DNA from: Verrucomicrobiia bacterium
GTDB taxonomy: Bacteria > Verrucomicrobiota > Verrucomicrobiia > Limisphaerales > JAEYXS01
Assembly (NCBI GenBank): GCA_036405135.1
Contig: DASWYF010000049.1
Coordinates: 62,001 to 126,000 of the forward strand
DNA: 64,000 nt
Direction: 5' to 3'
Shown: piece after piece, positions 11,953 to 15,254 of the stretch
How positions within the stretch are numbered: position 1 is the stretch's first letter
Layout: every line of letters starts with the position of its first letter
The notes under the pieces: generated by a model
The model's input: the letters and a program-made list of their open reading frames with translations, nothing else
Databases searched by the model: none
What the model was told of the DNA's origin: nothing
Program-made: the position numbers and the translations under genes

Positions 11953-12543
11953 TCAAGACACCTGCATTAGCCGTTCGGCCAGCAGGCGTTGGTAGGTGGC
12001 GAAGGCGGCCTGGCCGAAGCAGACGAAAGTGACTTTTTCGATGGTGCTTTCGGTGGTGTTCAGGAATTTCAGCGTTTCGTCCAAGGCGATCCGGGTGGCG
12101 TCATCGAATGGAAAACCGTAGGCGCCGGTGCTGATGCAGGGGAAGGCGATGGTCTTCACATGCAAAGTCCCGGCGACTTTCAAAGAGTTCTGATAGCAAC
12201 GGGCGAGTTTCTCCGATTCACCTCTTTTGCCATCGCGCCAGATGGGGCCCACGGTGTGGATGACCCATTTGGCGGCCAGCGCGTAGCCTTTGGTGGCTTT
12301 GGCTTCGCCTGTGGGGCAGCCGCCGAGGGTGATGCATTCCTCGTAGAGCTCGCGTCCCGCAGCGGCGTGGATGGCGCCATCGACACCGGCACCGCCCGTC
12401 AGCGAGCTGTTGGCCGCATTGACGATGGCGTCCACTTGCTGCTTTGTGATATCCCCGGAGACGATTTCAATCCTGTCTCGCATTCCGGTAGCAACGTGAA
12501 GCAGGAGGTCTGCCGGTTCAAACATGAAACCTGCCTCTCGCAA
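11953..12543 (-). CDS. macrodomain protein, O-acetyl-ADP-ribose deacetylase type
   Basis: 196 residues. The macrodomain (about 24-190) shows IEIVSGDITKQQVDAIVNAANSSL, TGGAGVDGAIHAAAG and ISTGAYGFPFDDA, the adenosine- and phosphate-binding loops of the YmdB/MacroD class. The NAANSSL Asn and GGAGVDGAIH loop needed for deacetylation are intact. The family removes ADP-ribose or acetyl groups from O-acetyl-ADP-ribose in the cytoplasm. The first 20 residues look non-conserved; ATG 12483 (MRDRIEIV) may be the true start. It faces away from the DUF4388 gene at 12592, with 48 bases between them. Confidence 0.9.
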   Translation of the reverse strand: MREAGFMFEPADLLLHVATGMRDRIEIVSGDITKQQVDAIVNAANSSLTGGAGVDGAIHAAAGRELYEECITLGGCPTGEAKATKGYALAAKWVIHTVGPIWRDGKRGESEKLARCYQNSLKVAGTLHVKTIAFPCISTGAYGFPFDDATRIALDETLKFLNTTESTIEKVTFVCFGQAAFATYQRLLAERLMQVS

Positions 12544-12591: not shown

Positions 12592-13536
12592 ATGCTCACA
12601 AGATTTTTGTGCGTGGCGCTGGCATTGCACTTTTTGAACGGAGAGAACAAGGGAGCGGAGTTTCCGGTGCCCGATGGCGGCGCGCTGCTCTTGAATCTTA
12701 CGAGCGATCACGACATCACGCTGGATATCATGGCCAATGCCCAGCGATTCGCGGTGGTGACGGGATGGGGCGACCGCGCGGCCATCCGCAGCCTGAATTC
12801 GGGTGAGTTCGTGCAGGTGAACCAGGAGGAAGTGGCACAAGCGGAGTTGAAGGAAGGAGATCGCCTGCGACTGGGCAAGATACTCGTGGTGGTGGTGGTG
12901 ATCACACGTTTCAGCATGTCGGCACAAAAGCCCAGCGGAGAGACGGAGATCCACTTCGTAAGCAAGGTGCGTACGCGCGGACAGGAGGAACGCACCACAG
13001 GGCTATCCGGTACTATTGCGGAAACGCCAGTGCCGGATCTGTTACAATTCCTTTGTCGGTACGGCCGTACGGGTGTGGTACGGATCGAGAATCTGCCGGT
13101 GGTGGCGCGAATCCATATGCGGGACGGGCATGTGTGTTTCGCGAGCATTGATGCGAGTCCGTTGCCGCCGTTGCGGGCGCTTTTCCGTATCTTTCGCTGG
13201 ACAAAAGGGACGTTTGTCTTTGAGCAAGGACCGGTGAATCCGCAGCCGGATGAGATCGAGATGTCGACGGAGAATGCGATCCTCGAAGGCTTGCGAATGA
13301 TGGATGAGACGAAGGATATGGAGGCGGAGTTGCCTTCATGGAGCAGCCGGTTGCGGGTGAGTGGTGATCTTACGGGGGCGCAAGCAGGGTTGCCGCCGCA
13401 GGAGATGCAAGCACTATTGCTGGTGATGGAGCTGGGGATCGTGGGACGGGTGATCGATCAGATGCCGGATGATGATACGGCGATCGCGGCGTTGACGGCG
13501 TTGTTGCGGAAGGGGTTTGTAGTGGCGGAAGAATGA
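12592..13536 (+). CDS. FHA-like / DUF4388 (PATAN) signalling protein
   Basis: 314 residues, no signal peptide. The N-terminal part (about 14-95) looks FHA-like (FLNGENKGAEFPVPDG, LKEGDRLRLGKILV), but the usual GR and SxxH phosphothreonine residues are not visible. Residues about 138-235 match DUF4388: LSGTIAETPVPDLLQFLCR, GVVRIEN, IHMRDGHVCFASI and WTKGTFVFEQ. DUF4388 proteins are cytoplasmic adaptors linked to two-component systems and GTPase switches. The convergent gene at 13659-15254 encodes a receiver protein, which supports a signalling pair. No earlier in-frame start exists: an upstream ATG at 12559 is followed at once by a stop. Confidence 0.75.
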   Translation: MLTRFLCVALALHFLNGENKGAEFPVPDGGALLLNLTSDHDITLDIMANAQRFAVVTGWGDRAAIRSLNSGEFVQVNQEEVAQAELKEGDRLRLGKILVVVVVITRFSMSAQKPSGETEIHFVSKVRTRGQEERTTGLSGTIAETPVPDLLQFLCRYGRTGVVRIENLPVVARIHMRDGHVCFASIDASPLPPLRALFRIFRWTKGTFVFEQGPVNPQPDEIEMSTENAILEGLRMMDETKDMEAELPSWSSRLRVSGDLTGAQAGLPPQEMQALLLVMELGIVGRVIDQMPDDDTAIAALTALLRKGFVVAEE

Positions 13537-13658: not shown

Positions 13659-15254
13659 TTAGGCGGCTACTGATGTGGCTGGAGTTGAGCGGCCTATCAA
13701 TCGGCTGGCGGTGGTGCCGGGGATAGGTTCCAGCTTCAAATAGTTCTGCAGTTTACGAGCGCATTGTTCCTCCACGATGACGCTGCCGGGTTCGCAGATG
13801 GGCATCAACTGCGTGGCTTTGCGCAAGGCTTCGCCCCAGACTTCGTAGTAATAACTGGCCCGACCAATGACGCCGCCGGAGAGCGTGCCGGAGGCCATGG
13901 TGACGCGGAGGTGCAGATCTGTTTTGGTCTGCATGCGCAGGAGCGGGAGGACGTGCTGGAGTTTGAGCGCGATGTCGCTGACGGCATTGGCGTGATCGGC
14001 ACGTTCGCCTTGAAGGCCGGCGACGATAACAAACTGGCCGGGATTGGTGCGGATCTTGTCCGCCTTGCTGAAACGGGCGAGCCAATCCAGCGTCATGGAA
14101 ACTTCTGTGAGGACAGTGGCGGATTGCTTGGTGGGAAGTTGCGCGGAGAGGGCTTTGAAATCAACGATTTCGACCAATAGCACTGAGGCTTCGACGGCTT
14201 CATCGACGAAGCCTTGTTCACCCTGACGGATGCGGGCGGCAGCGCTTTGGGGCAGCGCGCCGTTCATGATCTGCTCAAGGTGTTCGCGCTCCATGCGCAT
14301 CATGTCCAGCAGCGCTTTCTCCTGATCACGCAGGCGTTTCTTCTGCACGGAAGATTCGATGCGGGCTTTCAGGAGGACGGGATTGAAGGGCTTGGGGATG
14401 TAATCTTCCGCGCCGATCTCGATGCAGCGGATGGTCACCTCCATCTCGTCCAGCGCGGAGAGCATGATGACGGGGATGTGGCCAAGGGCGGGATCGTTCT
14501 TAAACTTTTCGAGGTATTCGTAGCCGTTGGAGTTCGGCATGACGACATCCATGAGGATGAGGTCGGGCTTGCGTTTGTGGGCTTGCTCAAGGCCTTCCTT
14601 GCCGTTCTCTGCCTCGATAGTGACGTAACCGTAACGCTCCAAGCGACGGCAAAGCATGTCGCGGTTCATCTCGTTATCGTCCACGATCAGGATGGTGCCT
14701 TCATCCTGTGGCGATTCGGGCGGCTCTTCCATCAGCCAACGCGTGCGATGCTTGGATTTTTCGCTTTGCAGGCAGCGGTCCACGCGGTCTTTGAGCGAGG
14801 GGCTTTCGAAGGCGTTCTGCAGATTCTTGGCCGCACCGATGATCTTTTTGAGATCGGGCACGAGGCGCATATCGCCCCGTTCTTCAGCGATCTCCTGACA
14901 AAGTTCGGTGTAACCGATGATGAGATTCAAAGGGCTGCGCATCTCGAAACGCATGGTCTCGAGGTCCACGCGACCGACCATGAGCTTCCATGGGGCGAGG
15001 CCTTCATTGATGAGCGCGAGCAACTGGCCGCCGATGAGATGGACGCGCTCGAGATCAGGCAGCAGCGCCTGCGCGGAACTGCACGAGACATCCTCCATGA
15101 GCATCTCGGTGTAGCCGAGAATCTGGTTCAACGGCGTGCGCAGGCCGTGGCGAAAGGAGTTGAGCGAGTCGGCGACGTTGAGCAACGACTCGGTGGCACC
15201 TTCGCGTGCGGGAGGTTTAAGCGTGCTGACCGGCTGGTTTGATGAGTCCGCCAT
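13659..15254 (-). CDS. receiver-domain protein with two DHp-like helices and degenerate class III cyclase domain
   Basis: 531 residues from ATG 15254; the longer frame would need a TTG. Residues 33-56 resemble a histidine kinase dimerisation helix (NSFRHGLRTPLNQILGYTEM, His36). Residues 101-118 repeat the pattern without His (FEMRSPLNLIIGYTEL). No HATPase domain follows. A complete receiver domain spans about 186-305 (DD192-193, phosphoacceptor D236 in LILMDVVMP, K288 in IPKPFNP). A coiled stretch leads to a class III nucleotidyl cyclase-like domain (about 355-525, VLLVEIVDFKALS, ASGTLSGGVIG, YYEVWGEALRKA). Both metal aspartates appear replaced (E362, Q407), so catalysis is doubtful. It is likely a cytoplasmic phospho-switch that signals by binding. 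Confidence 0.82.
   Translation of the reverse strand: MADSSNQPVSTLKPPAREGATESLLNVADSLNSFRHGLRTPLNQILGYTEMLMEDVSCSSAQALLPDLERVHLIGGQLLALINEGLAPWKLMVGRVDLETMRFEMRSPLNLIIGYTELCQEIAEERGDMRLVPDLKKIIGAAKNLQNAFESPSLKDRVDRCLQSEKSKHRTRWLMEEPPESPQDEGTILIVDDNEMNRDMLCRRLERYGYVTIEAENGKEGLEQAHKRKPDLILMDVVMPNSNGYEYLEKFKNDPALGHIPVIMLSALDEMEVTIRCIEIGAEDYIPKPFNPVLLKARIESSVQKKRLRDQEKALLDMMRMEREHLEQIMNGALPQSAAARIRQGEQGFVDEAVEASVLLVEIVDFKALSAQLPTKQSATVLTEVSMTLDWLARFSKADKIRTNPGQFVIVAGLQGERADHANAVSDIALKLQHVLPLLRMQTKTDLHLRVTMASGTLSGGVIGRASYYYEVWGEALRKATQLMPICEPGSVIVEEQCARKLQNYLKLEPIPGTTASRLIGRSTPATSVAA

Follow-up and report, generated by a model that had tools for sequence, protein, structure and literature searches.

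The window, a stretch of 64,000 nucleotides on contig C49 of a Verrucomicrobiia genome (5.8 Mb, 97.8% complete), carries on its minus strand, at 13659..15254, a gene for a response regulator of 531 amino acids with the order DHp1-DHp2-REC-long helix-pseudo-cyclase, as delineated by ORF, Pfam and AlphaFold2 analyses. The ATG at 15254 is supported as the start because the protein of the sister orthologue (L013, 77% identity) aligns over residues 1-531 of the window protein. No kinase or receiver gene was seen beside the window gene or its sister, and a search with the window protein matched no other receiver on C49 at E 0.001; the gene is an orphan in this sense. It faces a convergent gene on the plus strand (12592..13536), separated from it by 122 bases, which encodes a protein of 314 amino acids with an FHA-like N-terminus and a DUF4388 domain (about 13006-13311). 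Pfam analysis of the window protein returned HisKA in two stretches (best 33-83), Response_reg at 188-299 and Guanylate_cyc at 355-503 (E=1.3e-18), and no other domain. The AlphaFold2 model of the whole protein (mean pLDDT 84.5, pTM 0.58) contained helices at 21-57, 62-85, 98-126 and 132-150, arranged as two hairpins, followed by the receiver, a long helix (292-333) and a cyclase fold.

The first DHp copy (residues 28-92; 14979..15173, minus strand), delimited by the HisKA match and the predicted helices, holds within its H-box His36, the candidate phospho-acceptor. In the second copy (residues 98-150; 14805..14963, minus strand), delimited by alignment and AlphaFold2, the corresponding residue is Phe103, and the model predicts that this copy joins DHp1 in a single four-helix bundle. 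Modelled alone, the tandem DHp (139 residues) gave pLDDT 90.5 and pTM 0.85, a pTM which for a chain of this length predicts one compact unit; a single-chain run of this kind does not exclude a swapped dimer. Most of the model's length was matched in VIA-align by four-helix bundles, including 1yo7, a ROP dimer re-engineered as a single chain (Z 13.4, 115 residues aligned), where Z values near 13 between helical bundles may reflect only a common arrangement. Four-helix bundles being common, such matches support the topology and not kinship. No known DHp or HPt chain was among the structural matches listed for the tandem DHp, and Foldseek returned no match to its model under E 0.001. The two copies are predicted to fold within one chain as a compact four-helix bundle. 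The receiver (residues 186-299; 14358..14699, minus strand), recognised by Pfam Response_reg (101.5 bits) and by alignment, has Asp236 as its phospho-acceptor position and NEMNRDMLCRRLERYG as its docking helix. In family alignment A1, D193, D236 and K288 were invariant and D192 nearly so, and the receiver model superposed on DivK with a VIA-align Z of 23.4 at 1.1 A. These results confirm the initial annotation in its description of a DHp-like helix with His36, a second copy with the His replaced, and an intact receiver. Its view that the protein is not a kinase was borne out as well, with no Pfam match to an HATPase domain in the window protein at E<=1 and none to HATPase_c in the 49 family members scanned at E<=0.01.

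The C-terminal class III cyclase-like domain (residues 353-510; 13725..14198, minus strand) was delimited by Pfam, alignment and structure comparison. Its fold is well recognised, both by Pfam (Guanylate_cyc 67.7 bits, cut-off 21.9) and by VIA-align against the catalytic domains of solved guanylyl and adenylyl cyclases (Z 23-24; for instance 6aob, Z 24.4, 178 residues aligned). All six canonical catalytic positions of the domain are changed. We take the roles of these positions (two metal Asp, substrate Lys/Asp and transition-state Asn/Arg) from the class III literature. The first metal Asp position is Glu362 and the second is Gly406, while Arg402, Glu471, Arg478 and Gln482 occupy the substrate and transition-state positions. 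The placement of Gly406 was free of gaps in alignment A1 (48 relatives) and also against three solved cyclases (adenylyl cyclases 8 and 5, and 4p2m). The metal aspartates had been read at first as Glu362 and Gln407; the former stands, while the latter was one residue off. Structure prediction and alignment to adenylate cyclases, proposed as a check of these positions, left both metal Asp changed with no gap at the metal motifs. An alternative placement of the metal Asp residues elsewhere in the domain was rejected, as no gap interrupts these motifs in any of the three alignments to solved cyclases. Degeneration as a sequencing artefact was likewise rejected, since four of the six changes (Gly406, Arg402, Glu471 and Gln482) recur in the sister protein, which comes from another assembly and has Asp at 362 and Ile at 478.

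The window protein is therefore very probably not an active cyclase, and the earlier opinion that it was probably no cyclase is strengthened by the four further canonical positions that are changed. That it still acts as one, either by itself or by pairing with a paralogue in a heterodimer, is highly improbable. Some class III dimers, such as mammalian C1/C2, use one half without metal residues, and here the fold is predicted to be intact and a paralogue in the same genome, on contig C40, keeps its metal Asp residues; the window domain, however, has neither the metal Asp residues nor the Lys/Asp/Asn/Arg set needed from the other half. A role as the complementary half-site for the C40 paralogue was rejected on the same ground, both residue sets being absent. 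The cyclase part most likely signals by contact with another protein instead of making cyclic AMP. The proposal of a phospho-switch with a pseudo-cyclase output, made when the gene was first described, was supported.

A first search for relatives of the window protein covered the best 80 of 584. The 92-member family set was chosen by similarity to the window protein (BLAST alignment starting before residue 60, >190 bits) and includes the seven best matches of a further search; contained duplicates and REC-cyclase proteins without DHp, many of them cyanobacterial, were left out of it. All six canonical cyclase residues are kept in 80 of the 92 members. Twelve deviate, one of them (L111) only through an alignment gap; eight of the twelve form the group of the window protein, in which all eight aligned members deviate. 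With the positions read in order and a dot for the canonical residue, the window protein is ERGERQ, its sister.RGEIQ, L149 and L150 ....RA, L014 N...QL, and the operonic members L006 (the C40 paralogue of the window's genome), L011 and L015.R.Y.E. Outside this group, changed cyclase residues were found in L105, L119 and L080. L105 (genome G038) is a tandem-DHp regulator of another family, located behind a lone receiver, with RN.YDK at the six positions. In a quick tree built from DHp and REC columns only, the five dereplicated members of the window's group lay on one side of a branch with an SH-aLRT of 94, just under the star threshold of the tree program (95). Since the whole group is degenerate on a tree of the DHp and REC parts, the cyclase appears altered across the clade and not solely in the window gene, which is its most degenerate member.

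Comparison of the window gene with its sister revealed a pN of 0.209 for the cyclase part as against 0.063 for REC, so that the cyclase part changes about 3 times faster than the receiver. For the same genome pair, the corresponding values were 0.074 and 0.073 in the C40 operonic paralogue, and 0.116 and 0.101 in an intact REC-cyclase on contig C35. The dN/dS ratio between window gene and sister was about 0.12 in the cyclase part and about 0.02 in the receiver, both rough figures since dS is near saturation. Decay of a paralogue on its way to a pseudogene would account for a cyclase part that changes faster than in both paralogues, and for the differences at positions 362 and 478 between the two orthologues. 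This explanation is nevertheless quite improbable, because two genomes carry the gene intact, with 77% identity between the proteins, because DHp1, DHp2 and REC (86%, 89% and 91% identical) show a pN well under pS, and because degeneration extends to all of the clade and to its operonic copies. Judged from these substitution patterns, the cyclase part evolves faster than in the paralogues yet is under purifying selection, and the protein is plainly kept.

The DHp-DHp-REC-cyclase order was found, among the matches listed, in records labelled Verrucomicrobiota, Acidobacteriota, Planctomycetota, Pseudomonadota, Myxococcota, Chloroflexota and Actinomycetota, many of which are metagenome bins. The doubled helix noticed in the window protein is thus real but not peculiar to it: the alignment of 92 members made it the hallmark of a widespread architecture, and its interpretation as an oddity of one gene was rejected. 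The receiver phospho-Asp (the Asp236 position) is kept in 92/92 rows. The DHp His is present in the first copy only in 47 members, in the second only in 24 and in both in 21, and no member lacks it in both; after dereplication at 75% (n=70) the respective numbers were 33, 19, 18 and none. On the tree, the His changed 2 times in the first copy and 7 times in the second. Were the two copies independent, about 12 of the 92 members would be expected to lack both His, as against 0 observed, a figure that is indicative only in view of the relatedness of the members. We also fetched 20 lower-ranking relatives. Ten had two copies, none without both His, with a weak second copy in L172, L174 and L183 and masked stretches in L176; six had a single His-less DHp-like remnant, one (L173) an unclear remnant, and three no DHp-like remnant at all. 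In the six with a single His-less remnant (L168-L171, L177 and L178), all of them REC-cyclase proteins, the cyclase motifs are canonical; Pfam, applied to L168 and L169, misses the remnant. The tandem HisKA-REC unit also occurs with other outputs in three distant relatives, as recognised by Pfam: SpoIIE in L184 (717-2417, -) and L187 (460-2160, -), and AAA_35 in L186 (234-2324, -). Occurrence of other outputs on the same unit indicates that the tandem DHp-REC is a module. Among the literature matches listed, no description of a tandem-HisKA regulator or of a bacterial pseudo-cyclase regulator was found, which is a weak sign of novelty given that most subscription journals lie outside the scope of that search.

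On this evidence the tandem DHp probably acts as a phosphotransferase, as far as sequence and model allow. The DHp pair could instead serve only as a docking or dimerisation scaffold, with the C40 kinase or another kinase phosphorylating Asp236 directly and the output still a pseudo-cyclase. The six His-less remnants among the 20 distant relatives are in its favour, as they indicate that a DHp can persist without phosphotransfer. Against it, none of the 92 two-copy members, and none of the ten more distant ones, lacks both His, and the copy that bears the His differs between lineages. We regard this explanation as unlikely; the genomic context, described below, has further bearing on it.

In 72 of the 91 family loci, the ORF immediately upstream and in the same orientation encodes a lone receiver (70 of the 86 loci with at least 600 bases of upstream sequence), and in 35 of the 72 the lone receiver and regulator genes overlap by 4 bases. 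A kinase-like ORF is also upstream in 38 of the 72; both are present in 30 of the 49 loci with at least 3.5 kb upstream. Among the 19 loci off this pattern, the first two-component ORF upstream is kinase-like in 7, an arrangement that a scaffold would also fit, and none was seen upstream in 12, which include the sister and some loci with little upstream sequence. The window's own genome has the full cassette on contig C40: a kinase (HAMP, HisKA, HATPase_c and two receivers), then a receiver of 125 amino acids, then the paralogous regulator. By sequence, the window gene is an orphan paralogue of this cassette regulator.

The alpha1 helix, which we take to be the docking helix of receivers, was compared in the 51 of 72 cassettes left after dereplication and mapping. 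Between the lone receiver and the regulator's own receiver, alpha1 identity was 0.62, as compared to 0.33 in the rest of the domain, and it exceeded the rest in 51/51 cassettes. For the receivers inside the kinases the values were 0.34 and 0.32, with alpha1 higher in 29/51. The shared alpha1 identity suggests that the lone and in-cis receivers have the same docking partner, for which they appear to be kept. The simplest reading of the relay order is from the kinase to the lone receiver, to the tandem DHp and to the in-cis receiver. Both receivers could equally dock on the kinase's own DHp, which in C40 is identical to DHp1 of the cassette regulator at 31 of 62 residues, and this similarity would suit a scaffold.

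The receiver helix of the window protein is identical to that of the C40 lone receiver at 14/16 positions and to that of the C40 regulator at 13/16. This closeness leads us to infer that the window regulator is fed by the C40 cassette. The same 14/16 match would also be expected of a phosphoryl sink or decoy, a protein that drains or competes for C40 phosphoryl groups and whose output has no partner. In line with a sink, DHp1, DHp2 and REC are 61%, 59% and 61% identical to the C40 regulator while the cyclase part is down to 27%. A pure sink would, however, not need a cyclase part that is full length in both genomes and, with a roughly estimated dN/dS about 0.1, under purifying selection, and this possibility is rather improbable.

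In the convergent neighbour, DUF4388 (PF14332), a domain which we take to be the same as PATAN, scored 72.8 bits against a cut-off of 25. FHA (PF00498) at 14.1 bits and Yop-YscD_cpl at 27.8 bits remained under their cut-offs of 20.7 and 33.2, and the N-terminus is called FHA-like only. A match to the neighbour over both parts at E under 1e-25 was found in 6 of 196 genomes of the order, the window's included. The degenerate clade was itself found in six genomes, namely G000 (window), G001, G002 (sister), G013, G014 and G098; G001 is 76% complete, and its clade contig measures 5,995 bases. In three of the six, a DUF4388 gene adjoins the clade member. The two genes converge in G000 and G002; in G014, which belongs to another family, they run the same way, and the first ATG of the DUF4388 gene follows by 23 bases a regulator that has kept its place in a kinase-receiver operon. 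The adjacency is absent in G013 and G098, and beside the operonic paralogues of G000 and G002. The suggestion that the two facing genes form a pair was therefore upheld in part, for a linkage in three of six genomes and two arrangements, and a general pairing with DUF4388 was rejected. As DUF4388 genes are few (6 in G000, 4 in G002 and 2 in G014), it is unlikely that chance placed them beside the clade member in two families and in two orientations, though G000 and G002 are not independent. The DUF4388 protein is a possible partner of the window regulator, if somewhat less likely than not.

FHA-like-DUF4388 genes apart from the regulator occur in G098 and G013 (L154 6645-7751, L155 5696-7498 and L158 5125-6156). 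Beside the DUF4388 gene of the window lies a gene at 11953-12543 (minus strand), presumably macrodomain-like. It is identical at 116 of 172 residues to a counterpart (L151 12919-13479) that lies next to the kinase cassette on C40, and it was not among the ORFs of at least 150 amino acids on the sister's contig. A segmental duplication may have given rise to the two copies and, with them, to the window regulator.

From the domain anatomy, the loss of catalytic residues, the purifying selection, the cassette paralogy and the partial gene linkage, we propose an orphan phosphorelay branch with a built-in phosphotransferase and a pseudo-cyclase output, a model whose chances as a whole we put at about even. 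Two DHp hairpins in one chain would form a four-helix bundle with one acceptor His (His36) and no ATPase, working as a Spo0B-like phosphotransferase and not as a kinase. A phosphorylated receiver would donate the phosphoryl group to the bundle; the likeliest donor is the C40 lone receiver, whose docking helix is nearly identical. His36 would pass the group on, presumably in this direction, to Asp236 of the receiver in the same protein. By way of the long helix, the phosphorylated receiver would then affect the cyclase-fold domain, which, being very probably non-catalytic, may serve as a phospho-dependent protein-binding module with the FHA-like-DUF4388 neighbour as the first candidate partner. 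More tentatively still, the tandem DHp may represent a new phosphotransfer module: single-chain by duplication, with the His on either copy by lineage, fused to REC and to outputs that can be exchanged (cyclase, SpoIIE phosphatase or AAA), as a rule receiving its phosphoryl group from a lone receiver, and spread over seven labelled phyla, the cyclase of one Verrucomicrobiota clade having turned into a phospho-controlled pseudo-enzyme that signals via a DUF4388 protein. If true, this would add a single-chain, built-in phosphotransferase to the known phosphorelay wirings, and a natural experiment across lineages in which DHp copy keeps the His. It would also provide a bacterial pseudo-cyclase under the control of receiver phosphorylation, and a testable partner for a DUF4388 protein, whose Pfam family is still named as of unknown function.

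In the Spo0F-Spo0B-Spo0A phosphorelay, Spo0B is a DHp-type phosphotransferase. The proposed system resembles it in having a lone receiver, a DHp-type His carrier without kinase activity and a second receiver with an output. It differs in its DHp, of which a single chain holds two copies that are joined to the regulator and, by prediction, make up an intrachain bundle, whereas Spo0B is a homodimer, and in its output, which is a cyclase fold and not DNA-binding as in Spo0A. Response regulators with a class III cyclase output exist, such as cyanobacterial CyaC. The window protein shares with these a long helix and a class III cyclase fold after REC; unlike them, it has no kinase domain, carries a tandem DHp in front and belongs to a clade in which catalytic residues are lost. 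ChpT and PhyT are phosphotransferases between kinase and regulator, and ChpT is described as a separate dimeric protein that resembles a histidine kinase (PMC3433190, PMC5898713). In contrast to ChpT as portrayed there, the module of the window protein is without an ATPase-like domain and fused to a response regulator. Cyanobacterial PATAN regulators are reported to bind the pilus motor PilB (PMC7690835, PMC10519157). As in those accounts, a DUF4388-type domain may here be coupled to a receiver-based system; unlike in the regulators they describe, the DUF4388 domain belongs to a protein of its own, together with an FHA-like part, and the gene of that protein neighbours the one for a pseudo-cyclase regulator.
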